DNA from: an uncultured Opitutia bacterium
Lineage (GTDB): Bacteria; Verrucomicrobiota; Verrucomicrobiia; Opitutales; Opitutaceae
DNA: 64,000 nt
Reading direction: 5' to 3'
Assembly (NCBI GenBank): GCA_903896015.1
Contig: CAITWF010000017.1
Coordinates: 1-64,000 of the forward strand
The position numbers were made by a program, and so were the translations under genes. Below the pieces are notes generated by a model, which saw nothing but the letters and a program-made list of their open reading frames with translations, did not search any database and was not told the DNA's origin. Shown here piece by piece: positions 37,123 to 52,382 of the stretch. Numbering within the stretch: the stretch's first letter is position 1; each line of letters starts with the position of its first letter.

Positions 37123-37779
37123 ATGACGATCGACTGGTGGAAGTTTTTACCCGCGCTGCTCCTGCTCCTCGTGCCCGGCGATCTGTTCAACGGCGGCGAG
37201 AAGGTGCGCTACCGCGACGTCACCCGCGAGTGGCACGGCTACTGGCTGCGCTTGCTCACCCACGGGATGCACACGATCGACCTCGGGCGCGCGGCGCTCG
37301 GAACCTGGCTGCTGCTCGACTCCCTGCACGGGGCGCCCGAAGCACGCGGCCTCCTGCGTTATGCACCGCTCGTCACGCAGGGCTCCATCCGGATCCTCGC
37401 CGTGTTAGTGCAGACGCTCGTCTGCCGGGAGAAGGATGCGATCAACGCGCCGTTCACGTTCGTGGTCGGCCTGCTGTTCGCGGGCATCTCGCCCGTCGTC
37501 GCGCTGTTTGCGGTGGCACTCGCCGTGCCGATCGCAGCAGGGATGCGCGCGCCGGCGGCATTTTTCCCGGTCGTCGCGATCGCGCACATTGGGATCGGCT
37601 TTTGGTTTCGCGGACGCGCCCTGGGCGGCGGCGCGAGCTTCGCCGTGCTGCCCAGCCTCGCCTTGGCCGCAATCGCCGCGATGGTGCCATTCTTGTGGTC
37701 GCTTATGTTCCGTCGCGATTTGGTCGTGGCCTACCGCGCGAAGCCTCGATCCGCCGAGACAAATTCCCCGCTGCGCTAA
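37123..37779 (+). CDS. Multi-pass membrane protein of unknown function
   Basis: The 218-residue protein has roughly six hydrophobic segments (FLPALLLLLVPGDLF, ALGTWLLLDSL, SIRILAVLVQTLVC, FTFVVGLLFAGISPVVALFAVALAVPIAAG, FFPVVAIAHIGIGFWF, FAVLPSLALAAIAAMVPFLWSLMF). The loop YRDVTREWHGYWLRLLTHGMHTIDLGRA is charged and looks conserved-like. I do not recognise the family. Its stop TAA overlaps the stop codon of the convergent sulfatase-like gene. Confidence 0.72.
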   Translation: MTIDWWKFLPALLLLLVPGDLFNGGEKVRYRDVTREWHGYWLRLLTHGMHTIDLGRAALGTWLLLDSLHGAPEARGLLRYAPLVTQGSIRILAVLVQTLVCREKDAINAPFTFVVGLLFAGISPVVALFAVALAVPIAAGMRAPAAFFPVVAIAHIGIGFWFRGRALGGGASFAVLPSLALAAIAAMVPFLWSLMFRRDLVVAYRAKPRSAETNSPLR

Positions 37780-38999
37780 ACCAAGGCCCCGAGTTGCGCG
37801 ATCTCCGCGGCGCACGCCGGATCGGCCGCGAGATTTTTGGTTTCACCCGGATCGCGCTGAAGATCGAAGAACATCCACGGCGTTCCATCGGCGTTGAGCG
37901 CGAGCTTGCGCGTAGCCGTGCGCACGCCGCGCCACACGCGTTCACACTGATGCGGCAATGCGACTACGCTCGGCATGGAGATGCGCGCGAACGACGTTTC
38001 GATTCGCGGACGTCGGTTCTCGATCTCAGCCAACATCAACTCGGGCAGATCAATCAATGAAACGGCGACCCCGCCCCGCGGGCTACCCGTCTTCCAACTC
38101 CCGCCTCCGATCAGCAGCGGCACGCGCACGCTTTCCTCATGCGGCCAGCCTTTGCGAAACAACCCATGCGCGCCGTGCATGTCGCCGTGCACACTGGTGA
38201 AAACCACGATTGTATTTCCCCGTTCGATGTCGCGCAGGAGAACTTCCCCGACCGCGCGATCGGTCGCTTCGAGGTGCGCGTAGTAGCCGGCGAGCTCGCG
38301 GCGGGCTCGCGCCTCGGCTTCGCCACCCCGTGGGACATTTGCCGGTAAAATAATTTCCTCAGGCTCGCGCGGAGCGATCCCGCCGGCCGGCGCATCGTAG
38401 GGCGGATGCGGTGGCTCAAGGCTGACCACGGCGAAGAATGTCTCGATTCCGGAGTTTCGATTTTGGATTTCTGCAAGCCACTCCGCCGCACGTTCACACA
38501 CGACGTCACTCTGATAGCCGGAAAAACGTTTCGGCTCCCGCAACCGCGTCCCATGCAGCCAAGGATCGTTGAGCAAAAATCCGCTCTCAAAACCCTCCCA
38601 CATTTCAAATCCCCCGCGCGCCTCCGGCGGCACAATCGTCGTGGCGTGCGCCTCACCCACGAGCGGCGCGGCCGGATCGCGTTTCCCCAAGTGCCACTTG
38701 CCGAAAAAAGCCGTCGCATAACCCCGCTCGCGCAGCGTGTGCGCGAGCGTCCGCGCCCCTGTCGGCAAAGGATCGAAGTAATCGCGCACGCCGTTTTCCG
38801 GCGACGACACGCCGGTGAACAGCGCGGCGCGCGCGAACGGCCCGAAGGGATGTGGCGTGACGGCCTGCGCGTAATTCACGCTCCTTGCCGCGAGTGCGTC
38901 GATGTGCGGCGTGCGCGCGTTCGGATCGCCCGCGTAGCCGCACGCCGCCGCGCGCCACTGCGTGGTGACGATCCAAAGGATGTTCGGCGGACGGTTCAT
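37776..38999 (-). CDS. Sulfatase-family protein with degraded active site (likely pseudoenzyme)
   Basis: The 407-residue product is clearly a sulfatase/alkaline-phosphatase fold: PPNILWIVTTQWRA, PHIDALAARSVNYAQA, FFGKWHLGK, SLEPPHPPY, FTSVHGDMHGAHGL and EESVRVPLL. However, the formylglycine motif C/S-x-P-x-R reads G-P-F-A-R (Gly53), the metal-binding Asp of the N-terminal TDQ motif is Thr13, and the Asp of the DHGD motif is Val270. Lys101, His103, His198 and His271 remain. No signal peptide is present. Sulfate-ester hydrolysis by the standard mechanism should be impossible, so it may be a pseudoenzyme that binds sulfated glycans, or have a new activity. Confidence 0.85.
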   Translation of the reverse strand: MNRPPNILWIVTTQWRAAACGYAGDPNARTPHIDALAARSVNYAQAVTPHPFGPFARAALFTGVSSPENGVRDYFDPLPTGARTLAHTLRERGYATAFFGKWHLGKRDPAAPLVGEAHATTIVPPEARGGFEMWEGFESGFLLNDPWLHGTRLREPKRFSGYQSDVVCERAAEWLAEIQNRNSGIETFFAVVSLEPPHPPYDAPAGGIAPREPEEIILPANVPRGGEAEARARRELAGYYAHLEATDRAVGEVLLRDIERGNTIVVFTSVHGDMHGAHGLFRKGWPHEESVRVPLLIGGGSWKTGSPRGGVAVSLIDLPELMLAEIENRRPRIETSFARISMPSVVALPHQCERVWRGVRTATRKLALNADGTPWMFFDLQRDPGETKNLAADPACAAEIAQLGALV

Positions 39000-39139
39000 G
39001 CGCTACAGCCGGCGAGCATGGATCGATTTGCGGGCGGACGTCGAAAACCATTTGCCACGGCGCGCCCGGCGGCTTGGCTCACGCACGAACGCCTTCGCGC
39101 CCCGCGAGGCGGCCCTTCACCCCGCGTTTGCTTGATGCC

Positions 39140-40357
39140 ATGAAAGTCCTCCCCGCTCTCACCGTTTCCCTCTTGTTCGCCGCGGTCGCTTCGGCCGGGC
39201 GCAGCGCGCCGTCGACCGGCATGCCGTTCTACGGCGATCCGCCGGATGCCCACCATCCCTGGGCCGTGCATGATCAAAACCGGCCGCAGCCGAAACGCGT
39301 TGAGCCCGGCACCTTTAGCACGCCGGAGCAGCCCGGCCAGCCGCCGTCCGACGCGATCGTGCTGTTCGACGGCACCACAGCATCGCTCACCAATTGGGAG
39401 GCCGACACCAAAGCCGGCGAACCCAGTGCGCCGACGAAGTGGGTCGTCAACGATGGTGCACTCGAGTGCGTGCCGAAGTCCGGCTACATCCGCACCAAGG
39501 ATGAATTCGGCGATATCCAACTCCACGTCGAATGGGCGGCGCCGAAAAACGTGAAGGGCGACAGCCAGGGCCGCGGCAACAGCGGCATTTTCTTGCTGGG
39601 TCTCAAAGGCACGGCCGACGGCCCCGAGGTTCAGGTACTCGATAACTACGACAATGCCACCTACGCCGATGGCTTCGCCGCCTCGGTCTACGGCACCAAC
39701 CCGCCGTTCGCCAACGCGCTCCGCCCGCCGGGGACGTTTCAGGTGATCGACATCGTTTTCCGCCGCCCCGTCTATCGCGACGGCAAACCGATCGACGCTG
39801 GTTACGTGACGGTATTCTGCAACGGAGTCCTCATGCAGGATCACACGCCGCTGGAAGGCCGCGGCGGTCACATGAAGCGGACATTCGCGGGCGAGTTCCC
39901 GGAAAAGGGCCACCTCAAACTACAGGACCACGGCAATCCCGTTCGCTTTCGCAATATCTGGCTCCGGCCGCTGCCAGCGCGCACCGTCGAGGGCGGCACC
40001 AATGGCTATCTCGATGCCGCCGCCACCACGGCGAAGCGCAAAGAGATCGCCGCCACCGTCCGCGCCGATGCCGCCCATCTCACCGGCACCGCGCAACTCC
40101 TTCGGCTCGCCGAATCGCTGGTTTACGAATCTGATGCCGCGACCGCGGCCCGAGTCACGCAACTGGGCGCCGCCTACGCCGCCGATCTGAAAAAACTCTC
40201 GGGCGCTGTGCTCGACGCGAAAAAGGACGAGGCGAAATCCGTCCAACGTGCGTGGCAGTATCTGGCGAAATGGAATTTCGTTTCCGCCGACTACGCGCCC
40301 AAGAGTGCGCTCGACGCCGTGATCAAGGCGCAGGGCTGGGATGCCGAGAAGAAATAA
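39140..40357 (+). CDS. Secreted DUF1080 (3-keto-disaccharide hydrolase-like) protein with C-terminal extension
   Basis: The ATG at 39140 gives 405 residues: signal peptide (MKVLPALTVSLLFAAVASA), a segment of about 50 residues with GMPFYGDPPDAHHPWAVHDQNR, a DUF1080 domain (about 70-285: VLFDGTTASLTNWE, FGDIQLHVEWAAP, GNSGIFLLG, PVRFRNIWLRPL) and a helical tail (about 300-405) rich in Ala/Lys. The helical tail is absent from the other DUF1080 proteins here. It precedes the TonB-dependent receptor but is separated by two terminator-like hairpins. Confidence 0.87.
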   Translation: MKVLPALTVSLLFAAVASAGRSAPSTGMPFYGDPPDAHHPWAVHDQNRPQPKRVEPGTFSTPEQPGQPPSDAIVLFDGTTASLTNWEADTKAGEPSAPTKWVVNDGALECVPKSGYIRTKDEFGDIQLHVEWAAPKNVKGDSQGRGNSGIFLLGLKGTADGPEVQVLDNYDNATYADGFAASVYGTNPPFANALRPPGTFQVIDIVFRRPVYRDGKPIDAGYVTVFCNGVLMQDHTPLEGRGGHMKRTFAGEFPEKGHLKLQDHGNPVRFRNIWLRPLPARTVEGGTNGYLDAAATTAKRKEIAATVRADAAHLTGTAQLLRLAESLVYESDAATAARVTQLGAAYAADLKKLSGAVLDAKKDEAKSVQRAWQYLAKWNFVSADYAPKSALDAVIKAQGWDAEKK

Positions 40358-40378
40358 CCTGCGACCGCCGCAGCCTAG

Positions 40379-40415
40379 CGCACCCGGGAGGATTCTCCTC
40401 TGGGTGCGTTTTTTT
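40379..40415 (+). terminator. Intrinsic terminator of the DUF1080 gene
   Basis: The stem CGCACCC (40379-40385) with GGGTGCG (40402-40408) is extended inside by GGAG/CTCC (40387-40390 with 40395-40398) and followed by seven T residues (40409-40415). It lies 21 bases after the stop codon. Confidence 0.85.
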
Positions 40416-40450
40416 GCATCGCGCCCGGGCGAACAGTGAGCGCAACGGAC

Positions 40451-40497
40451 GCCTGACGGTCAGGCTCTCATCGCACGGACAGCTGTCCGTTTTTATT
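40451..40497 (+). terminator. Tandem hairpins with T-rich tail in the TonB receptor leader
   Basis: GCCTGA-CGG-TCAGGC (40451-40465) is followed by the perfect palindrome ACGGACAGCTGTCCGT (40475-40490) and TTTTATTTG. The second hairpin with its T-run resembles a terminator. Coming about 35 bases after another strong terminator it may end a short RNA, or act as a leader attenuator. Confidence 0.5.
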
Positions 40498-40661
40498 TGA
40501 CTGCGCCGCCGAGCGCAAGACTCTCGTCGACGCCCCACTGCATTGCCCCTCGTCGCCCTCGGTCGTGCCTTCCCCTCGCACCGCGGCCGCAAAGCTTCCC
40601 TTCCCTCACGTCGACGCACGAAAGAGTGTTACGTGCAGGCCCTCCGCAAAATTCCCCGACC

Positions 40662-43600
40662 ATGATTAGCTCAAACCCTGACCGTCATTCCCTCGGCGGA
40701 TGGCTCGCCATCAGCCTGTCCCTCGCCCTGCTCGCGTTTTCCCCCGCAGCGCTTTTTGCGCAATCCACCACCGGCAGCGTCAGCGGCAGCATCGTTGACG
40801 CTTCGACCGGAAAATACCTCGAAGGCGCGGAAGTCTCCATCAACGGCACCGAACTTCACGACGTCACCGCGCGCGAAGGCACCTTCACTATCAACGGTGT
40901 TTCCGTCGGTGCGCACACCGTCACCGTCACGTATCCCGGCCTCGAGACTAAGAGCACCTCGGTCAACGTTGTCGCCGGTCAAGTCGTGACGGCCCCGTTT
41001 CGCCTCGGGACGAGCGAAGTCGTAACGCTTTCGGAATTCAAGGTCGCCGGCACAAAAGAAGGCATGTCGCAGGCGATCGCGCTCCAAAAAACCGCCGCCA
41101 ACTCCAAAGTTGTCGCCGCCGGCGATCAATACGGCGACATCGCCGAGGGCAACGCCGCCGAATACCTGAAGTTCCTTCCCGGTGTTGGCATCGACTACAA
41201 CGCCAACGACGCCCGCGCCGCCACGCTGCGCGGCATGAGCACCGCGTTCACGAACGTCACCATGAACGGCAACCCGCTCGCGAGCGCCACCTCGGGCAAT
41301 CTCAACCGCCGCTTCGAATTTGAGCAGGTATCGATCAGTAACGTCGAAACGATCGAAGTCTTCAAGACCCTCACCCCGGAAATGCAGGCGACCAGCACCG
41401 GCGGCGCCGTCAATCTCGTCACGAAGAGCGCCTTCGATCGCGAAGGCACCCTCGCCACCTACCGCGTCTACCTCCAGGCGATCAGCGACGACCTCACCAC
41501 CGCCAAGACTCCCGGCTGGGGCCAGGAACTCACCCGCAAAATCCTCCCCGGCATCGATGTGAACTACGCCACCCGCCTCACGCCGAACCTCGGCATAAAC
41601 GTCAGCTATAAAAATTCCCAGCTCTTCAACGACTATCCGCGCTCCTCGTATTCCTGGGACTACAATCCCGCCGACGGCGGCACGCCCACTCACCCGATCC
41701 TCACTTCGTGGAATTTGCAGAACGAGCAGAAAGACACCCGCCGCCAGGGCTTCTCCACCCAACTCGACTACCGCCTCGGGGAGCACACCAAGCTCTCCTT
41801 TCTCGGTGACTGGACCTACTACGATCTGATCTTCACCGATCGCACGACGACGGTAAACACCGGCACGGTCGCCGCGCTGGCCACCACCTCGACGCCGTTC
41901 TCCGGCACGACCTTCAACGGCCTTGCTGGCAAAGGCTCCGTCACCTTCCAGGAAATCAACCGCTGGAAGTCCGGCGTCACCTGGGATTTCCCGCTCAACT
42001 TCACGCACGATTTCGCCGACGGCTCCAAGCTCGAGGCCAGCACTTTCTGGAGCCAGGCCTACAGCAAATACCGCGACACGACCGGCTCCTGGTATTCCGA
42101 TGTCACCATCCAGCGCGGCGGCACCAGCCCCCAGACCAACACCGTCACCGATCCCATCACGGTCGGGTTCGATAACATAGGCGGCATCGTCCCTTCCTAC
42201 CGCGTCACCGACGGCACCGGCGCCGCCGTCAACCTCAACGATATCAGCAAGGATCAAGTCACCCAAATCCGTAGCCGCCCGCAAACCGGTGTCGATACGC
42301 ACGACGGCGCGAGCCTCGACTACAAGAAAGTTTTCGCCACCACGATCCCGTTGTCGCTCAAGTTCGGCGGCCGCGTGGATGACACCACCCGCAACATCGC
42401 CGACCCGATCTTCAACCGCACGGGCACCTCTGCCGCGACCGGCTTCGGTGGCGCTTCCGCCATCACCGGCACGACTCTCGCCGGCCTCGCCGACACCGCG
42501 TTCGTCAACCACTCGATCGGCTACGGCCTCCCAGCCTATACGTTCCCGAGCGTCTATCGCGCCTTCTCTGCGCTCGGCGGCAACAACTACCTGCCCTACA
42601 CTCCGGCCAGCGACACTCAGGCGCGCTTCGACGACACCACCAGCGCCGGCTACGTCCGCGCCGATATCACACCCGTCGACCATCTTCTCGTCGTCGGCGG
42701 CATCCGCTACGAAGACCGCCTCACCAAGGTGCAGAACCGCCTGCTCACCCTCCCGGCACCGATCAACAGCCAATTCGCCGACAAGCGCTGGTTCCCCTCG
42801 CTCAATCTGAAATACACGCCCACCAGCGAACTCGTCTTCCGCTTCGGCTACGCCAAATCGATCGGCCTGCCCGACTACAGCGATCTCCTCCCCGGGCCCG
42901 CCACCTTCACCGATCCTGCCGGCGGCAATCGCGGCAAAGTCAGCGTCTACAATCCCACTCTCCAAGCGTATCACGTCGACAATTTTGACGCCGGCGTAGA
43001 ATACTACTTTAGCCGCTCCGCTTTCGCCTCCATCTCGGTTTTCCGCAAGACGCTCACCAACTTCATCGTCACCGGTTCGCAGGCGCTCACCGCCGCCTCC
43101 GCCGCCTCGCTCGGCATCAGCCAAAATTCCCTCGGCGCCACCTTCGACCAATACGACATCACGACGAAGTTCAACGTGCCCGACGCCGGCCACTACAACG
43201 GCATCGAGGTCGGCTACTCGCAAAATTTCACGTTCCTCCCGAAGCCGTTCAACACCCTCGGCCTACAGATCAACGGCACCCTCCTCACCATCGATCCTAT
43301 CAAGACCAACATGGTCTTCAGCTCGACCGACGCGAATCTCAACGCCGCGATTCTCCAACAGGTCAACAAGACGCTAGAATTCGCATCCGTGAAGCAAGCC
43401 CTCAATGTCACGCTCAACTACAGCATCGGCAAGTTCGGCTTCAACGTCTCGACCAACTACACCGGCCATGTCCTGAAGGCCTTCTCGCAGAAGACGATTC
43501 AGTACAGCGATCTGATTCCCGGCACAGCGACGAAAATCCCGGCCCAATACTACAACGAGTATCAGTATCAGGCCCCACGTGAGCTCGTCGACGTGCGCAT

Positions 43601-43751
43601 CGACTACAAGTGGAGCCGAAAATTCACGCCCTATTTCCAGGCGCGAAACATTTTCGGCCGCCCGATCATCATGTCCACGCCGACGCTCCCCTTCAACCAC
43701 GCCGAATACGGCGACCCCATCTTCGAACTCGGCGTCCGCGGCGTGTGGTGA
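40662..43751 (+). CDS. TonB-dependent receptor with carboxypeptidase-regulatory-like domain
   Basis: The ATG at 40662 gives 1029 residues. Order: signal peptide (about 1-33, ending LFAQ), carboxypeptidase-D regulatory-like beta domain (about 36-116: SGSIVDASTGKYLEGAEVSI), a TonB-type linker (VVTLSEFKVAG), plug domain (about 135-270: LPGVGIDYNANDARAATLRGM, VTMNGNPLAS, IEVFKTLTPEM, GGAVNLVTK) and a beta-barrel to the C-terminus, ending FELGVRGVW. Such outer-membrane receptors import oligosaccharides or metal chelates with TonB-ExbBD energy. Adjacent glycoside hydrolase and DUF1080 genes make a carbohydrate ligand likely. There is no SusD partner. A terminator follows. Confidence 0.92.
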   Translation: MISSNPDRHSLGGWLAISLSLALLAFSPAALFAQSTTGSVSGSIVDASTGKYLEGAEVSINGTELHDVTAREGTFTINGVSVGAHTVTVTYPGLETKSTSVNVVAGQVVTAPFRLGTSEVVTLSEFKVAGTKEGMSQAIALQKTAANSKVVAAGDQYGDIAEGNAAEYLKFLPGVGIDYNANDARAATLRGMSTAFTNVTMNGNPLASATSGNLNRRFEFEQVSISNVETIEVFKTLTPEMQATSTGGAVNLVTKSAFDREGTLATYRVYLQAISDDLTTAKTPGWGQELTRKILPGIDVNYATRLTPNLGINVSYKNSQLFNDYPRSSYSWDYNPADGGTPTHPILTSWNLQNEQKDTRRQGFSTQLDYRLGEHTKLSFLGDWTYYDLIFTDRTTTVNTGTVAALATTSTPFSGTTFNGLAGKGSVTFQEINRWKSGVTWDFPLNFTHDFADGSKLEASTFWSQAYSKYRDTTGSWYSDVTIQRGGTSPQTNTVTDPITVGFDNIGGIVPSYRVTDGTGAAVNLNDISKDQVTQIRSRPQTGVDTHDGASLDYKKVFATTIPLSLKFGGRVDDTTRNIADPIFNRTGTSAATGFGGASAITGTTLAGLADTAFVNHSIGYGLPAYTFPSVYRAFSALGGNNYLPYTPASDTQARFDDTTSAGYVRADITPVDHLLVVGGIRYEDRLTKVQNRLLTLPAPINSQFADKRWFPSLNLKYTPTSELVFRFGYAKSIGLPDYSDLLPGPATFTDPAGGNRGKVSVYNPTLQAYHVDNFDAGVEYYFSRSAFASISVFRKTLTNFIVTGSQALTAASAASLGISQNSLGATFDQYDITTKFNVPDAGHYNGIEVGYSQNFTFLPKPFNTLGLQINGTLLTIDPIKTNMVFSSTDANLNAAILQQVNKTLEFASVKQALNVTLNYSIGKFGFNVSTNYTGHVLKAFSQKTIQYSDLIPGTATKIPAQYYNEYQYQAPRELVDVRIDYKWSRKFTPYFQARNIFGRPIIMSTPTLPFNHAEYGDPIFELGVRGVW

Positions 43752-43811
43752 TCTCCGATCGATGGTGAATGGGGAGGCGGCACGATCGCCATGTCTCCCA
43801 TCGCTCTGCTC

Positions 43812-43843
43812 AAGGCCCGCCGTCCGGCGGGCCTTTTTCTTTT
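43812..43843 (+). terminator. Intrinsic terminator of the TonB receptor gene
   Basis: An 8-bp stem GGCCCGCC (43814-43821) with GGCGGGCC (43826-43833), loop GTCC, extended by AA/TT and followed by TTTTTCTTTT. It lies about 60 bases after the receptor stop. Confidence 0.9.
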
Positions 43844-43888
43844 CACTCTCGTCTCCGTCTCGCCCGCGCGCTCCATTTCTCATGCTCC

Positions 43889-45442
43889 ATGAAAGCCCCA
43901 TTGCTCGTCTTGCTCCTTTTGGCCCTGTCCCAAATCGCCTCGGCCCAGCCCACCGTCGAACGCTGGGGCCTCTTCGAAGCCGGCTTCACGGGCCCGAGCA
44001 CAGGCAACCCGTTCACCGACGTCGCGCTCAAGGCGACATTCACGCAGGGCAATGCGTCTCACGACGTGACGGGTTTCTACGACGGCGGCGGGAAATATTT
44101 CGTCCGCTTCATGCCCGAAACGATCGGCGAATGGCGCTTCGTCACGCACAGCAATCGCCCGGAACTTGACGGCAGTTCGGGCACGTTCACCGCAGTCGCA
44201 CCCTCCGCCGCGAACCACGGCCCGGTGAGTGTCGCGCACACGTTTCATTTTGCCTACGCCGACGGCACGCCCTTCCGCCAAGTGGGCACCACCTGCTACG
44301 CGTGGATTCACCAGGGCGACGCGCGCGAGGAGCAGACGCTCAAGACGCTCGCGAGTTCGCCGTTCAACAAACTCCGGATGTGTATTTTCCCGAAATTCTA
44401 CGAGTGGAACAAAAACGATCCCGCTTACTTTCCCTTCGAAGGCACGGCCAATCACTGGGACACCACGCGCTTCAACCCCGAGTTTTTCCACCACCTCGAG
44501 AAACGCCTTGCGCAGCTCCGTGACCTCGGCATCGAGGCCGATCTGATTTTGTTTCATCCCTACGACAAAGGCCACTGGGGCTTCGATCGGATGGACGCGG
44601 CGAGCGACGATCGCTACCTTCGCTACGTCGTCGCGCGGCTCGCGGCGTTTCGCCACGTCTGGTGGTCGATGGCCAACGAGTATGATTTCATGAAGGAGAA
44701 AACCGAGGCCGATTGGGATCGTTTTTTCCACATCGTCCAGTCCTCCGACCCCTACGCGCACCTCCGCTCGATCCACAACGGCTCGAAAATCTACAACCAC
44801 ACGCAGCCTTGGGTCACGCACGTCAGCATCCAGGACGGCGCCGCCGTCGGCGATCCCGAGCGCGCGATGCTGCTGCGCGATGTTTATCGCAAGCCGATTG
44901 TTTACGACGAAGTGAAATACGAGGGCGACATCCCGCAGCGCTGGGGCAAGCTCTCCGCGGACGAAATGGTTTTCCGTTTCTGGAACGGGCTCATCGGCGG
45001 CACCTACGTCGGTCACGGCGAAACCTACGCGAATGCCGACGAAATTCTCTGGTGGTCAAAAGGCGGCGTGCTCAAGGGGCAGAGCCCCGCGCGTCTCGCG
45101 TTTTTGCGGAAGGTCATGGACGAGTCACCGGCCGAGGGCATTGATCCGATCGACAAATGGCAGGACGAAAACACCGCCGGAAAAGCAGGAGAATATTACC
45201 TGATCTATTTCGGCAAGAGCACGCCGAAGGAATGGCCGTTCACGCTCTACAAGGACGCGCTCAAGGACGGCCAGAAATTCCAAGTCGAGATCCTCGACAC
45301 GTGGGCGATGACCGTCACGCCCGTGGGGAGCACCTTCACCACGAAGAAACGCGACAACTATTTCTTCGAGGACGCCGCCAAAAAATCCGTCGCGCTCCCC
45401 GGCAAGCCTTACTTGGCGCTTCGCATACGGCGCGTTCCGTGA
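43889..45442 (+). CDS. Secreted DUF5060/apiosidase-like glycoside hydrolase
   Basis: The 517-residue product has a signal peptide (MKAPLLVLLLLALSQIASA), an N-terminal DUF5060 beta domain (about 22-105: FVRFMPETIGEWRFVTHSN), a TIM-barrel of the DUF4038/apiosidase-like class (about 115-400) and a C-terminal beta domain (DUF5605-like). Candidate catalytic glutamates are Glu264 in WWSMANEYDF (acid/base position) and Glu341 in IVYDEVKYEG (nucleophile position). Characterised relatives release apiose or other side-chain sugars from plant pectin. It lies downstream of the TonB receptor, separated by a terminator, so it has its own promoter. Substrate specificity is inferred only to the level of plant or algal glycans. 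Confidence 0.87.
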   Translation: MKAPLLVLLLLALSQIASAQPTVERWGLFEAGFTGPSTGNPFTDVALKATFTQGNASHDVTGFYDGGGKYFVRFMPETIGEWRFVTHSNRPELDGSSGTFTAVAPSAANHGPVSVAHTFHFAYADGTPFRQVGTTCYAWIHQGDAREEQTLKTLASSPFNKLRMCIFPKFYEWNKNDPAYFPFEGTANHWDTTRFNPEFFHHLEKRLAQLRDLGIEADLILFHPYDKGHWGFDRMDAASDDRYLRYVVARLAAFRHVWWSMANEYDFMKEKTEADWDRFFHIVQSSDPYAHLRSIHNGSKIYNHTQPWVTHVSIQDGAAVGDPERAMLLRDVYRKPIVYDEVKYEGDIPQRWGKLSADEMVFRFWNGLIGGTYVGHGETYANADEILWWSKGGVLKGQSPARLAFLRKVMDESPAEGIDPIDKWQDENTAGKAGEYYLIYFGKSTPKEWPFTLYKDALKDGQKFQVEILDTWAMTVTPVGSTFTTKKRDNYFFEDAAKKSVALPGKPYLALRIRRVP

Positions 45443-45457
45443 ACAGCGCCGAGCCGC

Positions 45458-46312
45458 TTATTTCTCCGCAAACTCCGCCGGGACCGCCGTAATTCGCTGC
45501 ACGGCGACATCGCGGTAAAACACTTCCGCGCCTTCTGTCTGCAAACTGATCTGGCCCGACGCGAGCGGCGCGGGCGCCGGGCCATCGAGTCGCTGCGCGC
45601 CGTGCAACCGCATCACGACCACGCCATTCACGACGTGGATCGAGTCGCCGTTGAAACAGATCAGATCGAGCGTGTTCCACTCGCCCTTTGGCTTCTCCGG
45701 ATCGCCGAGCTTCACGCAGCGGTTCCCGATCGGCGCCTTCTGCACGAAGAGCACCGGCGCGCCCTTCGGCTCGAAGAGCCAGAGCCGGCCTTCCTGTCGC
45801 GCGTTCACAATGATCTGCGCGCCGAGCGCGTAGAGATCTCCCATGTCGTGTTCCTGAATTTGAAATTCGATCGAGCGTGGCCACGTCTCATGATCGAAGC
45901 CACCCTCGCTGTGCACGAAATAAAGCAGCCCGCAGTCACGCGGCGCGTTGAGCTTCGAGCCCCATTTCTTTTCGCCCCACTTGATCTGCACGCGGACGTG
46001 ACAGTTGCCGAACGATTCGTTGGTCGTCATCACCCCGAAACCCTGCCCCGTGATGTAAATTGCCGGCCCGCCATCGACCTCCTTCACGTTGAAAACATGC
46101 AGCGGATCCCGGTTTTTTCCGATTACCTCAAGGTATTTTCCATTCGCGTCGCGCTTCAGGCCCGGCACGTCCCACGACTGATCGGGTCGCGTGAGAAACG
46201 TCGTCCAGCCGTCGAAATCTTTTCCGTTGAAGAGCGGCCGCCACGGTTCGTCCGCCCGCAAGCCGATCGAACAAAGCAACGCACAGCCGAGTAGACACGT
46301 GGGGTAACGCAT
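45458..46312 (-). CDS. Secreted DUF1080 protein, second of a tandem pair
   Basis: The ATG at 46312 gives 284 residues: signal peptide (MRYPTCLLGCALLCSIGLRA), then DUF1080 with PLFNGKDFDGW, FGNCHVRVQIKWGEKKW, DCGLLYFVHSE, PRSIEFQIQEHDMGDLYALG, KGEWNTLDLICF and a C-terminal EGAEVFYRDVAVQRITAVPAEFAEK. It is the minus-strand neighbour of the next DUF1080 gene and shares its C-terminal sequence almost exactly (AVPAEFAEK). It converges on the glycoside hydrolase gene with 15 bases between the stops. Confidence 0.88.
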   Translation of the reverse strand: MRYPTCLLGCALLCSIGLRADEPWRPLFNGKDFDGWTTFLTRPDQSWDVPGLKRDANGKYLEVIGKNRDPLHVFNVKEVDGGPAIYITGQGFGVMTTNESFGNCHVRVQIKWGEKKWGSKLNAPRDCGLLYFVHSEGGFDHETWPRSIEFQIQEHDMGDLYALGAQIIVNARQEGRLWLFEPKGAPVLFVQKAPIGNRCVKLGDPEKPKGEWNTLDLICFNGDSIHVVNGVVVMRLHGAQRLDGPAPAPLASGQISLQTEGAEVFYRDVAVQRITAVPAEFAEK

Positions 46313-46390
46313 AATGCCGCGCACGCTGTTCCGCGCGCAGTGCCGGCTCAAAACCTTCGTTGCCGGTCAGTCCGCCGTCGGCGCCGCGTT

Positions 46391-47272
46391 TCACTTCTCG
46401 GCAAACTCCGCCGGCACGGCCGTAATCGATCGAATCTCGACCGCACGGTAGAACACTTCCGCGCCTTCCGACTGCAAGATGATCGGACCGGAAGTCACCG
46501 GCTGAGGCGTCGGGGTGTCGATGCGCAGCGGTTGGTGCAGGCGCATGACGACCACGCCGTTGACGATGTGGATGCTGTCTTCGCCGAGGCAGACGAGTTC
46601 GACGGTGTTCCACTCACCGGACGGCTTTTCAGCATCGGGCTGCTTCACACAACGGCCGTCCTGACCCGGCACCTGGGCGAACACGTTCCACGCCCCTGCC
46701 GGATCGTAGTCGTAGAGCGGTCGCACCGTCGCGGTTCCCGTGCCAAGGCGGAGATGCGAACGCACAAGAATAATTTCACCGATCGCGTAGAGATCGCCGA
46801 CGTCGTGCTCCTGGATTTGCAGCTCGGTCGAGCGCGCCCAGGTGCGCCCCTCGGCACCTGGCGCAGCGTGCACGTGATAGAGGAGTCCACTGTCGCGCGC
46901 GGTCGTCGCGCCATCGCGCGGCGGCCACTTCCTCTGACCCCATTTGAATTGGAGGCGCAGGTGATAGTTTTGAAACGACGCCAGCGATCGCAGTTCGCCA
47001 AACACCTGTCCCGAAATGCGAATCGCCGGCTGGCCGTCGATGTTCGGTGCGACGGTGAAAACCCCCAGCGGATCGCGCGCGCCAATCGGCTGCGTGTAGT
47101 TCCCTCTTTCGTCCTTCGCAAGTGAGTCCACGACGACACTCGCGTGCGGCTTGCTGATCCACACGGACCAGCCGGAAAGATCTTTGCCATTCCAGAGCGG
47201 TTTCCAGTCGTCGGCGCGCAGCACGGCGCATAGGAGAAACGCCACCGTCAGCAATAATGTTCGGGGTTGCAT
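46391..47272 (-). CDS. Secreted DUF1080 protein, first of a tandem pair
   Basis: The ATG at 47272 gives 293 residues: signal peptide (MQPRTLLLTVAFLLCAVLRA), then DUF1080 with PLWNGKDLSGW, FQNYHLRLQFKWGQRKW, DSGLLYHVHAAPG, QIQEHDVGDLYAIG, GEWNTVELVCLGED and an ending ITAVPAEFAEK. The QIQEHDxGDLYAxG segment is common to both members of the pair. Divergent from the membrane/TPR gene, with 95 bases between starts. The pair likely handles related substrates. Confidence 0.88.
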   Translation of the reverse strand: MQPRTLLLTVAFLLCAVLRADDWKPLWNGKDLSGWSVWISKPHASVVVDSLAKDERGNYTQPIGARDPLGVFTVAPNIDGQPAIRISGQVFGELRSLASFQNYHLRLQFKWGQRKWPPRDGATTARDSGLLYHVHAAPGAEGRTWARSTELQIQEHDVGDLYAIGEIILVRSHLRLGTGTATVRPLYDYDPAGAWNVFAQVPGQDGRCVKQPDAEKPSGEWNTVELVCLGEDSIHIVNGVVVMRLHQPLRIDTPTPQPVTSGPIILQSEGAEVFYRAVEIRSITAVPAEFAEK

Positions 47273-47367
47273 GACGCCATCACGCTGCCGTCGACGCCCG
47301 GAAACGCGAGTCGGAACCGGGTGCGAAAAACATTTCCCCCACGCTGCGCCGCGTTTGAATTGCCACC

Positions 47368-49281
47368 GTGGATTCCCCAGCTCCATCGCAATTATCCGCC
47401 TCGCGCTGGCCGGTGATCGGCGCGCTCGTGCTCATCGTCGCTGGGTTCGCGGCCTACTCGAACACGTTTTCCGTCCCGTTCGTGCTCGATGACACCGTCT
47501 CGATCGTCGACAACGAATCGATCCGATCGCTGTCGGCAATCGGACGGGTCTGGTCGCCACCAGAGGATGCCGGCGTTGGCGGTCGGCCGCTCGCGAATTT
47601 TTCCTTCGCGCTGAACTACGCGATCGGCGGGACAGACGTGCGCGGCTATCATGTCGTGAATCTCGCGATTCATCTCGCGGCAGCGCTGGTATTGTTCGGT
47701 CTCGTGCGGCGCGCGCTCGCCGCCGCGGTGCTCGCGCCACAGTTTCGTGAAGAACTGCGCGCGCCGCTCGGGTTGGCGATCGCGCTTTTGTGGCTGCTGC
47801 ATCCGCTACAGACCGAGGCAGTCACCTACGTTTCGCAGCGCACCGAATCGCTTATGGCGTTTTTCTATCTGCTCACGCTCTACGCGTTCGTGCGGCTCGC
47901 GGAAACTTCGTCGCGCGCCTGGTGGGCGACCGCAGTGGGCGCATGCGCCTGCGGCATGGCGACCAAAGAAGTCATGGTGACGGCACCGTTGATCGTGCTG
48001 CTAGTCGATCGAACGCTGATCGGCGGGAATTTTCGCGCGGCGTGGCAACGGCGCCGCTGGTTCTATCTCACCCTCGCGTCGACGTGGCTCGTGCTGGTGC
48101 TTCACCTCTCGGGCATCACCCAGCGCGGCGTCACCTACGCAACGGTTACGTGGTGGCAATACGGCCTGACCGAGTGCACTGCCCTGCAGACTTATTTGCG
48201 CCTCGCGTTTTCGCCCACACCACTGGTTTTCGACTACGGCGCCGAGTTTCCAACCTCGCTGGCCGGCACGGTGCTCCCCGCGGCGACGATTCTCGCGCTG
48301 CTCGCGGGCACGGTGCTCGCACTGCGTTTTCGCCCGCAGCTCGGCTTGGCCGGAGCGTGGTTTTTCGTGCTCCTCGCGCCGACGTCGAGCATAATTCCGA
48401 TCGCCGGGCAACCGATCGCGGAGCACCGGATGTATCTGCCGCTCGCGGGACTGATCTGCGTGGTCGCACTACCGGCGACGGCGCGTTTTGGACGCAATGC
48501 CCTCGTCGTGCTCGTCGCACTCGCCGTGCTGTGTGGAGTGATCACGCATCAACGAAATCTCGACTACGGCAGCGTCGACGGTCTCTGGCGCGACACGATC
48601 GCGAAACGACCCGACAATGCTCGCGCCCACGCCACACTCGGTGCAGCGCTGCTGCGCCAGAGCCGGCTGCCCGCGGCCATCGCCGAATTCGAAATCTCGC
48701 TCACGCTCCAGCCCAACGACGCCAAGACGCACAACAACCTTGCGGCTGCGCTGCAGGACGCCGGCCGTCCGGCGGACGCCCTCGCCCACTATCGGGCGTC
48801 GGTGCGGCTTGAGCCAGCCTCCTCCAGCACCTACTACAATTTAGGCAATGCGCTCCTCGAACTAGGCCGCACGACCGAGGCGATCACGGCGCTGGATCGG
48901 GCGGTCGCCCTCCGGCCGACCCTCGCCGTCGCCCACGCGGCGCTCGCCAACGCCTTGGTCAGCACCGACCGCGCGGCTGATGCCATCGCGCACTACACCG
49001 AAGCCCTGAGCCTCGACCCGACGCTCGCGCCTGCGCATTTCGCGCTTGGCAATCTGCTCGCCAGCGCGGGTCGCTTTGCCGAGGCGCTCCCGCACTACGA
49101 GGCGACGCTCGAAACCTATCCCAACGTGCCGGAGGCCCAGTGCAATTTCGCCACCGCGCTCGCGATGACGAGCCACGTCGCCGAGGCGATCGCGCACTAC
49201 GAGATCGCGTTGCGGCTCAAGCCGGATTTTTCCGCGGCCCGCGAAAATCTTGCGCGTCTGCGCAGCCCTGCCCCGCCATGA
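47368..49281 (+). CDS. TMTC-like polytopic membrane protein with C-terminal TPR repeats
   Basis: The GTG start gives 637 residues. The first 410 or so form many membrane helices with features of the GT-C/TMTC-like superfamily: an acidic loop (VPFVLDDTVSIVDN), GRPLANFSFALNY, HPLQTEAVTYVSQRTESL and AEHRMYLPLAGL. The last 220 hold about six TPR repeats (RAHATLGAALLRQSRLPAAIAEFEI and similar). Eukaryotic TMTC proteins are O-mannosyltransferases of this layout; bacterial relatives are mostly uncharacterised. A protein glycosylation role is inferred. It converges on the coiled-coil protein gene, with 10 bases between. Confidence 0.8.
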   Translation: MDSPAPSQLSASRWPVIGALVLIVAGFAAYSNTFSVPFVLDDTVSIVDNESIRSLSAIGRVWSPPEDAGVGGRPLANFSFALNYAIGGTDVRGYHVVNLAIHLAAALVLFGLVRRALAAAVLAPQFREELRAPLGLAIALLWLLHPLQTEAVTYVSQRTESLMAFFYLLTLYAFVRLAETSSRAWWATAVGACACGMATKEVMVTAPLIVLLVDRTLIGGNFRAAWQRRRWFYLTLASTWLVLVLHLSGITQRGVTYATVTWWQYGLTECTALQTYLRLAFSPTPLVFDYGAEFPTSLAGTVLPAATILALLAGTVLALRFRPQLGLAGAWFFVLLAPTSSIIPIAGQPIAEHRMYLPLAGLICVVALPATARFGRNALVVLVALAVLCGVITHQRNLDYGSVDGLWRDTIAKRPDNARAHATLGAALLRQSRLPAAIAEFEISLTLQPNDAKTHNNLAAALQDAGRPADALAHYRASVRLEPASSSTYYNLGNALLELGRTTEAITALDRAVALRPTLAVAHAALANALVSTDRAADAIAHYTEALSLDPTLAPAHFALGNLLASAGRFAEALPHYEATLETYPNVPEAQCNFATALAMTSHVAEAIAHYEIALRLKPDFSAARENLARLRSPAPP

Positions 49282-49291
49282 CGGGCGCGCA

Positions 49292-50704
49292 TCACTGAAG
49301 CTTCGGCGGCAGGGCGAGCACGCGCGCACCGAGGCCGTCGAGCAGCGCGCCGGTTTGCTGCCCGAGCACGTCGTCGCCGGTGCGGATCGTTTTGGCGGGC
49401 GTGAAATCTTTCAGCAGCGCGCAATAGTCGCTGTTAACCATGATACCGAGCAGTTCGCCGGTCTTCGCGAAGACCAAGTCACCGCGTGAAGGCGCGAAAT
49501 CGCCGAAGAGTCGCTTGAAAAAACGGTTGTCGACGCGCACGAAATTCGGTTCGGAGGCGTCGAGCTTGAAGCCGACTTCGCCGTAGCCCTTGCCCCCGCC
49601 GTTGACGAGCACCGCCTCGGGAAACTTGAACGGCTCTGTCGCGAGCGGATAGACTTTCGCACCAAGTGCCGCCGCCTGCGAAGCATCGATCGGAATCACC
49701 GCGATGCGCGGGTCGTGGGCGAGGAATTGGAGCGTGCCCGCCGCACTGCGGTAGCCGGGCGGATGCGAGAACTCGATCGAGAATTTCTCCCAGTTGTCGC
49801 CAATTTCGTTGTAGGAAAAGATCGTGTCGGCCACGTGCAGGAGCGCGTAAATCTGGCGGCCGTCGGTGACGAGCACGGTGCGCGCTTCCTTCGTGCGGTT
49901 GACGGGACCGAGCAGGCCTTTCCGCGTCGCGGAGAAATTCGTCGTCACGCGGTTCGCGAGAAACTCGTTGAAGAGCACGTTCGCGTTGATCGGGCGGTTG
50001 TCGCGGATTTCCTTCGTGAGTTCGCCAGATTTCTCGGCGAGCTGGCCGACGCCCTGCGCGAGCTGCGTCGCGGTCTCCTGCACTTTTGCTTTCTCCTGGC
50101 GCTCCGTCTCGACCTGCACCTTGAGGGTGTCGGCGGTTTCCCGAAGGCTTTTCTTTTCCTGCTCAGAGACGACGACCGCGAGAGTGAGGCCCTGAATCTG
50201 TTTCAACGCATCCGCTTGCTTCTGCTCAAGCGTGGCGAGCGCTTGTTTTTGTCGCTCGGCTTCCGACTGCTTGTCGGCGAGGTCGCGCTGGAGTTGCGCG
50301 AGCTGCTCCTTGGTGAGCGTCGCCTCCTGCGTGGCCGAGCTGAGCTTTTTGCTAAGATCGGCGAGGGTGCGCTGCGAGGTGTTGAGCGAAACGGCGAGCG
50401 TGTTCTTCTCGGCGGCGAGCGCGTTTTTCTCCGTTTGCGCCGCAGCAAGGGTTTGCTCGCGCGCAGCAAGCGCGGCGTCCGTTGTGGAAAGTTTTTCAAC
50501 AAGCTGCTGGCGTTGCGCGGACTCATCGGCAAGCGACTGCCGCATCACCTCGACCAAATCCTGATCCTTGGTGACGGCGTTGGCGGCGAGCTCGGGGACG
50601 GGCGCCTGCACGGCACGCGAGGGCTCCGCCTTCTCCCAGCGCGTGAGCGCAAGGAGATTAAGCAGGAGAAAATCGCAGAGAATGAGGAGGAGCGTCTTAT
50701 TCAT
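49292..50704 (-). CDS. Single-TM coiled-coil protein with MotB/TolR-like helix and trypsin-like C-terminal domain
   Basis: The 470-residue protein has one N-terminal membrane helix, MNKTLLLILCDFLLLNLLAL, with a buried Asp11 as in MotB/TolR/ExbD helices. A long coiled coil follows (about 48-235, many Gln/Lys/Glu heptads). The C-terminal domain (about 255-440) is beta-rich with GDLVFAKTGELLGIMVNSD, reminiscent of a trypsin-like fold but without an evident Ser-His-Asp triad. Its gene follows a polytopic membrane protein gene by 4 bases. By analogy the pair could be a proton-driven stator with an extracytoplasmic arm. This is inference; the family name is not known to me. Confidence 0.8.
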   Translation of the reverse strand: MNKTLLLILCDFLLLNLLALTRWEKAEPSRAVQAPVPELAANAVTKDQDLVEVMRQSLADESAQRQQLVEKLSTTDAALAAREQTLAAAQTEKNALAAEKNTLAVSLNTSQRTLADLSKKLSSATQEATLTKEQLAQLQRDLADKQSEAERQKQALATLEQKQADALKQIQGLTLAVVVSEQEKKSLRETADTLKVQVETERQEKAKVQETATQLAQGVGQLAEKSGELTKEIRDNRPINANVLFNEFLANRVTTNFSATRKGLLGPVNRTKEARTVLVTDGRQIYALLHVADTIFSYNEIGDNWEKFSIEFSHPPGYRSAAGTLQFLAHDPRIAVIPIDASQAAALGAKVYPLATEPFKFPEAVLVNGGGKGYGEVGFKLDASEPNFVRVDNRFFKRLFGDFAPSRGDLVFAKTGELLGIMVNSDYCALLKDFTPAKTIRTGDDVLGQQTGALLDGLGARVLALPPKLQ

Positions 50705-50708
50705 GGCG

Positions 50709-52382
50709 TCACGCCACCTTCGCCTCGGCCTGTGCCTCCATGATGAGCTGGCGTTTGTAGTCGCGCACGTGACGGATTTTCACGAGCGCCACACACAGGA
50801 TGCCGAAGAGGTTCGAGGCGTAGGCGGCCAAGAGGTTCGGCTCGATCACGCGAAGGACCTGCAGCACGAGCGCCGTCGCGGTGCCGGCGATGCCAACATA
50901 GAGGCCACCGTCGAAGAGGTTCTCCTCGTTCTCCATGAGCCTCAGCTTCACGAGTGGCGGCACCGACTGGTGCGAAATCTCGCGAATTTTCACGAGGCAG
51001 ATGAGATACATCGCGACCTGCAGCGAGGCAAAGAGGCCGATGGAAAGGAGCGTGGACGTGTCCATGATCATGGTGGGTTGAGATTTTTCGGGTGATGAAA
51101 TTTCGGAGGAGGCAACGAGCACCGGTAGGCGCAGGTGGAGCTGAAACTCGGACGGCGGCGCGGCCCGCAACAAGAAAGGCTCCGTCGCCACGACGAGCAT
51201 CCCCGCCGCCACGATCGACAGCGCGCCGGTGCGCAGATGCGTGAGCGCTGGCAGCGGCAGCATCCGTTCAAAGGGCCCGACGATCGCGCGATCGAGTCCG
51301 CGCAGCACGAGCCAGACCGCGAGCGCGTAGCCGAGATATTTGAACGCAAGCGTCAACTGCTGGTGCAGGAGCGCGAACGACGCCATCGCGGTGAGCGCCT
51401 CGCTGGCGCCGCGATTCACTGGCACCTGGCGCGTGAGCAACTGTTTCACCGCGCCCTGCCCGTCCGCAAGCGCAAGCTGTAGATCGGCGAGGCCGTTTTT
51501 ACCAAATTGGATCAGATAACTCGCCACATGATCGGCGGAGTCGGAAAACAGCGCCGCCGAATAAATAATCGGTAACTGATCGGGCGTCACGCGCGCGAGG
51601 TGGGCAAATTCACCAACCGTCTTCGCGCTGTCGGTGCGCTTGAGGAGTTCGCTGAGCTGCGTCCAGTCGAGCCGCCGGCCTAGCGAGAGCAGATCTATGA
51701 AGAAGGGTTCGAGTTCGCCGAGTTCTTTTTTCTCCAGCGCGGCCTCAGCGAGCGCACGGAGTTCACGTTGGAGTGACGGCGAGAAACGCTCGCCCTGGTA
51801 AAGCAGCGCGCTCAATGCGATGAGCGCGTCGAGCGGCTGGCCACCGGCGCGGGCCGCGGGCACGAAGCGCCCTGTCGTGGTGAGGTCGCGCAGCTTCAGG
51901 AGCGACTGCACGCCGAGAGATCCGGAATTGGCGAGCGAGGCGCGGAGTTTTTCACGCGCTTTTTCCGGCAGCAGAAACGTCAGCACCGGCGTGCTCACGC
52001 GCCGGCCCGAGTCGGCGCGCAGGTTGAAGAGCGGATCGAGAAAAGGATCCCAGCCGCCCCAGGCGACGAGCGCGGGCTGCTTCGCCGCATAACCCTCAAT
52101 CGCGCCCGCCAGTGCGGGCGCCCGCGGATCATCGATCGTGCGCGCGGCCGTCAGCACCAGCGCGGCGGGCCCAATCTTTTCCAAGTCGACGAGATCGCGG
52201 CCGAAGGCGCCGAGTGTCGGGGTGTCGGCACCCGCCGCGCGGAGGAGCGCGGGATTGGTCGATTTCAGGTTCGCCGGCACCGACCACGCAAGAAACGCCA
52301 CGATCAATCCCGCAAGGACCAGCGAAAGCGCGGCGAGCGGCGAACGGGAGACGGCGGCGGGAGCGCTCATCGAGTTGGACAT
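50709..52382 (-). CDS. Polytopic membrane protein with MotA/TolQ-like C-terminal helices
   Basis: The 557-residue protein has TM1 (about 16-36), a helical soluble region (40-335) and about five further helices (344-362, 385-405, 445-465, 490-510, 516-536). The last two, FDGGLYVGIAGTATALVLQVL and LLAAYASNLFGILCVALVKI, resemble TM3-TM4 of MotA/TolQ/ExbB/ZorA proteins (GxxGT and a small-residue-rich AYxSNLFGI helix), followed by a basic cytoplasmic tail. It is the first gene of the pair, as motA is before motB. The ATG at 52382 is 50 bases from the divergent def start; ATG 52370 is an alternative start. Confidence 0.8.
   Translation of the reverse strand: MSNSMSAPAAVSRSPLAALSLVLAGLIVAFLAWSVPANLKSTNPALLRAAGADTPTLGAFGRDLVDLEKIGPAALVLTAARTIDDPRAPALAGAIEGYAAKQPALVAWGGWDPFLDPLFNLRADSGRRVSTPVLTFLLPEKAREKLRASLANSGSLGVQSLLKLRDLTTTGRFVPAARAGGQPLDALIALSALLYQGERFSPSLQRELRALAEAALEKKELGELEPFFIDLLSLGRRLDWTQLSELLKRTDSAKTVGEFAHLARVTPDQLPIIYSAALFSDSADHVASYLIQFGKNGLADLQLALADGQGAVKQLLTRQVPVNRGASEALTAMASFALLHQQLTLAFKYLGYALAVWLVLRGLDRAIVGPFERMLPLPALTHLRTGALSIVAAGMLVVATEPFLLRAAPPSEFQLHLRLPVLVASSEISSPEKSQPTMIMDTSTLLSIGLFASLQVAMYLICLVKIREISHQSVPPLVKLRLMENEENLFDGGLYVGIAGTATALVLQVLRVIEPNLLAAYASNLFGILCVALVKIRHVRDYKRQLIMEAQAEAKVA

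Follow-up and report, generated by a model that had tools for sequence, protein, structure and literature searches.

Introduction

Ion-driven motors with 5:2 architecture are a small set (Mot/Pom, Exb, Tol, Gld, Agl, Zor and Sii), and more are expected (PMC12204202). In ExbBD, Asp25 of ExbD and Thr148 and Thr181 of ExbB are essential, the axle aspartate facing the pore threonines and carrying the ion (PMC12905483), and the aspartate of MotB serves as ion carrier in the axle helix of 5:2 motors (PMC9389320). A precedent for a divergent member is GldLM, a 5:2 motor that resembles MotAB little in sequence and has a long periplasmic shaft (PMC9389320). Verrucomicrobia also contain TolQ-like motors with a vWA partner, predicted to be 5:2, in which a helix carries an Asp and the periplasmic head is of an unusual kind (PMC12204202).

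The window analysed here, a stretch of 64,000 nucleotides of contig CAITWF010000017.1 from an uncultured Opitutia bacterium (GenBank assembly GCA_903896015.1), carries a pair of genes, here designated A and B, which recalls several of these systems. ExbBD and TolQR are likewise two-gene units in which one protein has an N-out helix followed by a transmembrane hairpin with GLxGT and TxxG motifs, and the other, like B, combines a periplasmic domain with a single helix that places an N-terminal Asp within the membrane. A/B differs from them in having no PF01618 or PF02472 match, a loop of about 28 residues in place of the helical cytoplasmic domain, and a B protein in which a long coiled coil with a trypsin-fold head takes the place of the ExbD/TolR domain. 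With MotAB and PomAB the pair shares the A-B gene order, the four helices of a compact form of A with T-x-x-G in the last and, in the B helix, the Asp-Phe of MotB, whereas A is devoid of a torque-generating cytoplasmic domain and B matches no peptidoglycan-binding domain or plug model. GldLM has different periplasmic domains. The Zorya defence proteins ZorAB are also a stator with a specialised partner, but A/B gave no PADLOC Zor match and is flanked by def, gfo and cobO, not by defence genes. In the vWA-partner motors the TolQ homologue is detectable and the head is a vWA domain, in contrast to the hidden putative hairpin homologue, coiled coil and pseudoprotease head of A/B. Finally, HtrA and DegS (Trypsin_2) share the fold of the B head and, by inference for B, its membrane-anchored periplasmic placement; unlike them B is without the catalytic Asp and GNSGG, has a long coiled coil, and yielded no PDZ domain. 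Judged by the defining profiles, A/B falls outside PF01618, ExbD, MotB and Zorya.

A conserved gene pair

The two genes lie on the minus strand:

50709..52382, minus strand: gene A, 557 aa, candidate ring subunit (open reading frame and homologues)
49292..50704, minus strand: gene B, 470 aa, candidate axle and arm (open reading frame and homologues)

A check of the open reading frames bore out the positions and lengths first given for the two genes, and the spacing of 4 bases between A and the following B. Of 173 relatives of A obtained from public species genomes, 80 loci were kept, with protein identities of 53–85% across these homologous A loci; the nearest relatives indicate an Opitutaceae-type host. 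B follows A in 77/77 Opitutaceae loci in which the contig runs past A (80 loci in all), the B start often overlapping the A stop codon. From the 80 homologous loci and the constant position of B after A, the coding status of both genes is beyond doubt. The neighbourhood survey suggested with the original prediction found the pair kept as a unit across many families, A and B being adjacent in nearly all loci of the other families examined, and the six Opitutaceae genomes without A were also without B. A and B are a conserved two-gene unit without a named protein family.

The arrangement varies at two loci: a 119-aa open reading frame stands between A and B in L132, and the genes are about 70 kb apart in the genome of L135. 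At another locus (L078) the N-terminal part of B is broken. In one Opitutaceae genome a copy of A has decayed, several stop codons interrupting it (G311:C12:288529-289243), so the unit can be lost.

The A protein and its distribution

An AlphaFold2 (AF2) model of A, built on 54 sequences, predicted six membrane helices, at residues 15-34, 341-367, 378-400, 442-466, 492-509 and 518-540. A had been described as ending in two membrane helices; both are present in the model as the last of six. The stator-like unit, placed originally in these two, comprises the last three helices, the two among them. The following features were recognized:

52281..52340, minus strand: residues 15-34, first membrane helix (AF2, hydropathy)
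51423..52253, minus strand: residues 44-320, helical solenoid-like domain (AF2 pLDDT mostly 85-94)
51183..51362, minus strand: residues 341-400, two helices with an Arg-rich turn, predicted cytoplasmic (AF2)
50715..51059, minus strand: residues 442-556, core with three MotA/ExbB-like membrane helices, conserved phylum-wide
50880..50882, minus strand: Thr501 in GIAGT, aligned with GT of ExbB/TolQ TM2 and MotA TM3
50811..50816, minus strand: Ser523-Asn524, aligned with T-x-x-G of ExbB TM3 and MotA TM4

The helical domain of about 280 residues is situated between membrane helices 1 and 2. Turns rich in Arg and Lys follow residues 360, 465 and 535, and by the positive-inside rule they most likely place the C-terminus in the cytoplasm and the helical domain on the periplasmic side. 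The loop of about 28 residues that precedes the terminal hairpin has one short helix (476-485) in the AF2 model and no helical cytoplasmic domain.

A profile of A matched over the full length in other families of the order; in other classes it matched the last ~115 residues only, because A there is mostly ~180 aa long. Such a compact A, with four membrane helices and without the helical domain 44-320, was found in most of the other-class loci read, and the B protein encoded after it has the same N-terminal helix, coiled coil and head. The core therefore needs no more than about 180 aa and four helices. A profile of the core detected it in 125/388 sampled genomes of the host phylum (103/312 genomes of good quality) and in 56/199 genera of the phylum, the accepted matches being set off from the rest by a clean gap between E 1e-28 and 0.003. 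Weak core matches in two genomes (G147 and G009) were discarded as likely unrelated subunits of the redox-complex type, in which one helix was matched. The phage and plasmid records contained no A homologue.

Relation of the A hairpin to MotA, TolQ and ExbB

Neither A nor 54 of its homologues and 25 core sequences matched PF01618 above the cut-off, and gene A is not among the genes of its own genome that match this model, seven others being found. Pfam, NCBIfam and PADLOC scans, by single sequence and by family, gave nothing for A, and the sequence search of solved structures gave no match for the pair. Foldseek and VIA-align searches with the whole A model gave no stator and no significant match, although one domain of this 557-residue model of pLDDT 78 may be missed by them.

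Profile-profile alignment was more informative. The last two helices of A proved co-linear with TM3/TM4 of ExbB/TolQ/MotA, GLxGT falling on GLLGT and STxxG on TxxG. With the family-balanced A profile against same-phylum ExbB/TolQ/MotA, hhalign gave a probability of 56%, an E value of 1e-4 and a score of 26.1, a score attained by 0/1000 block-preserving shuffles in which the composition of helices and loop was kept (null 11.7 +/- 2.6), while nine control windows from unrelated membrane families scored at most 13.5. The result depends on how the profile is prepared: when trimmed only, 1/400 shuffles was as good, against 0/1000 when trimmed and diversity-balanced, and profiles left untrimmed and dominated by Opitutaceae yielded alignments that were short or spurious. 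Position 501 is Thr in the Opitutaceae protein studied and Ser in some families; positions 523-524 are Ser-Thr in most other families, the second being Asn in Opitutaceae.

The case that the A hairpin is distantly homologous to that of ExbB/TolQ/MotA is good, not conclusive. The MotA/TolQ/ExbB/ZorA helix pattern first noticed in A thus stands at the level of the hairpin profile, but not at that of the PF01618 model. As neither protein is matched by the PF01618, ExbD or MotB models, the label 'MotA/MotB or TolQ/TolR' expresses analogy together with distant hairpin homology and is not a family assignment.

The B protein

The single N-terminal helix and the coiled coil of nearly 190 residues anticipated for B were both seen in its AF2 model, the latter as helices 46-175 and 183-235, and they are followed by a beta-rich head. 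The features of B are:

50633..50701, minus strand: residues 2-24 (about), single N-terminal membrane helix (AF2, conservation)
50672..50674, minus strand: Asp11, invariant intramembrane acid (113/113 sequences)
50000..50569, minus strand: residues 46-235, coiled-coil arm (AF2)
49316..49987, minus strand: residues 240-463, trypsin/HtrA-fold head, catalytically degenerate (VIA-align, residue checks)
49835..49837, minus strand: His290, on the HtrA catalytic His in the Trypsin_2 profile alignment, kept in 72/83
49478..49489, minus strand: Ser406-Asp409 (SRGD), where HtrA has the GNSGG nucleophile loop

The arm spans about 190 residues in the protein studied and is longer in several other families. 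Scans of B against PF02472 and PF13677 in Pfam gave no match, the locus is absent from the PF13677 results of the genome search, and matches to B in Pfam, NCBIfam and PADLOC amounted to coiled-coil noise only.

When the head was compared with solved structures by VIA-align, the 50 matches listed were all of the trypsin fold (Z 10.3-12.2, 150-180 residues), HtrA, DegP, DegS and viral 3C and TEV-type proteases among them. The B heads of other families are homologous to one another and to the Opitutaceae head. The residues were placed by a profile alignment with same-phylum Trypsin_2 domains, which has no statistical weight on its own. In it a DPR motif of B falls on the DPxTD loop of HtrA, the catalytic Asp being missing. 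Ser406 is kept in 59/83 sequences and is Lys, Thr, Asn, Gly or Arg in the remaining 24, the Gly-Asp that follows it being nearly invariant. No PDZ domain was found in B.

It is very improbable that the head still cuts substrates as a divergent protease moved or placed by A, which would make B a membrane-anchored DegS-like enzyme: the trypsin/HtrA fold and the placement of His290 on the catalytic His in 72/83 sequences agree with such an enzyme, but the catalytic Asp is absent, Ser406 is replaced in 24/83 and SRGD occupies the place of GNSGG. Lacking both catalytic Asp and GNSGG, the head is to be regarded as a pseudoprotease, most likely a non-catalytic binding module. Of the trypsin-like C-terminal domain initially ascribed to B, the fold is upheld (Z 10-12) and the catalytic residues are degenerate.

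The membrane helix of B, only 24 residues long, is too short for statistical evidence of homology to be obtained from it alone. Its profile was not above the null against ExbD (178/300 shuffles as good) and related weakly to MotB (27/300 as good). Conservation of Asp11 had been named at the outset as a test of the proposal, and Asp is present in 113/113 homologous B helices, from two classes, every other position of the helix being variable; even where CDF becomes LDV around it, in the most distant families, the Asp is kept. A signal peptide was considered for this helix and rejected, Asp being both invariant and within the hydrophobic core.

Short membrane helices can contain an Asp for structural reasons. 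Since the B helix is no closer to ExbD than are shuffles, and only weakly to MotB, Asp11 could be such a residue. A/B would then be a stable scaffold of the inner membrane and not a motor, Asp11 packing B on A, or on a second B, via hydrogen bonds, and the role of the coiled coil with its head would be only to display a periplasmic binding platform. The same anatomy, the non-catalytic binding fold of the head and the lack of a statistical match of the helix to ExbD all fit this scaffold, which nevertheless seems unlikely: Asp11 is invariant while all its neighbours vary, and A has the GLxGT/STxxG hairpin, which lines the ion path in 5:2 motors. A scaffold would not need both.

Proposed mechanism

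A/B is probably an undescribed family of ion-driven motor of the stator type, located in the inner membrane, the pair acting like a stator. A stator-type complex was the core of the original prediction, and Asp11 in 113/113 sequences, the hairpin score unequalled in 1000 shuffles and the conservation of the unit speak for it, whereas the helix of B has no ExbD match, the curated models matched nothing, the second Thr is Asn in Opitutaceae, and the cytoplasmic loop does not have the length that a torque domain requires. Asp11 lies ~10 residues from the cytoplasmic end of the B helix, Thr501 lies 10 residues into the penultimate helix of A and Ser523-Asn524 near the middle of the last, so that the ingredients of 5:2 motors, an Asp and Thr/Ser positions of the ring, are found at comparable depth in A/B.

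By analogy with these motors, several A subunits, probably five, would surround two B helices. Protons or Na+ may pass at the level of Asp11 with the polar Thr, Ser and Asn positions of A, and the ion cycle would turn or shift B relative to A. The very short cytoplasmic loop of A makes a cytoplasmic torque output of the flagellar type unlikely; output through the arm of B is likelier, as proposed for GldLM. The coiled-coil arm would relay the motion of B across the periplasm to the head at its end, and this pseudoprotease may bind, instead of cut, a partner, either a peptidoglycan-associated, an outer-membrane or another periplasmic protein. The helical domain of the Opitutaceae A, most likely periplasmic, could gate or dock the motor.

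A/B is best described as a minimal, phylum-wide variant of an ion-driven stator. If so, the pair adds a stator family that is spread across a phylum and missed by standard profiles. Its arm would be of a new kind and its ring subunit very small, the compact form having ~180 aa and hardly any cytoplasmic domain. Two questions would then come within reach of experiment, namely the minimal set of stator parts and the range of attachments that an axle can bear; the compact A has a size suited to rapid multimer modelling and to cryo-EM.

Gene context

In nearly all Opitutaceae loci a divergent peptide deformylase gene (def) stands beside A, and beyond it are an oxidoreductase gene (gfo) and then a cobalamin adenosyltransferase gene (cobO). 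This conserved housekeeping synteny argues against a mobile or defence element. In PADLOC the A core had no Zor match, and other systems were matched at the coiled-coil level only; a defence system was rejected on the lack of Zor genes together with the synteny.

A different context was seen in family f22, a large family of another class which has the compact A. There a gene for a Ser/Thr kinase with an FGE-sulfatase-type domain lies directly 3' of B in 13/14 loci, and the same type of kinase follows B in 1/2 loci of family f46 (examples from the f22 and f46 loci are L121:7001-9685, L119:861-3440 and L127:7138-9729). None of the 80 Opitutaceae loci has such a kinase near the pair, nor do the remaining families that were examined. 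The link is therefore specific to these lineages and not a general part of the system, and the kinase suggests a signalling role in f22.

Two readings give weight to this kinase. In the first, the pair is a sensor-transducer, with or without ion flux, which signals ion-motive force, stress on the envelope or a head-bound ligand to the transmembrane Ser/Thr kinase. The resemblance of the head to a ligand-binding pseudoprotease and the kinase position in 13 of the 14 f22 loci favour it, but the absence of the kinase from all 80 Opitutaceae loci and the other families examined renders this reading distinctly improbable. In the second, judged unlikely, the pair is a stator motor that puts out a signal in place of work on the outer membrane, ion flow moving the arm with its pseudoprotease head and the f22 kinase turning motive force or envelope load into phosphorylation.

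An LptF/LptG permease gene adjoins the pair in several f22 and f26 loci (L119, L121, L124, L130 and L125). In the window itself, the gene at 47368-49281, which ends 10 bases from the end of B, encodes a protein whose N-terminal membrane part is mannosyltransferase-like (PMT_2) and which has TPR repeats at its C-terminal end. A glycan-degradation cluster at 37776-47386 includes a sulfatase, a TonB-dependent receptor (40497-43751), an apiosidase-like enzyme (43769-45442) and 3-keto-disaccharide hydrolases (39074-40357, 45458-46351 and 46391-47386), the last two of which are in tandem.
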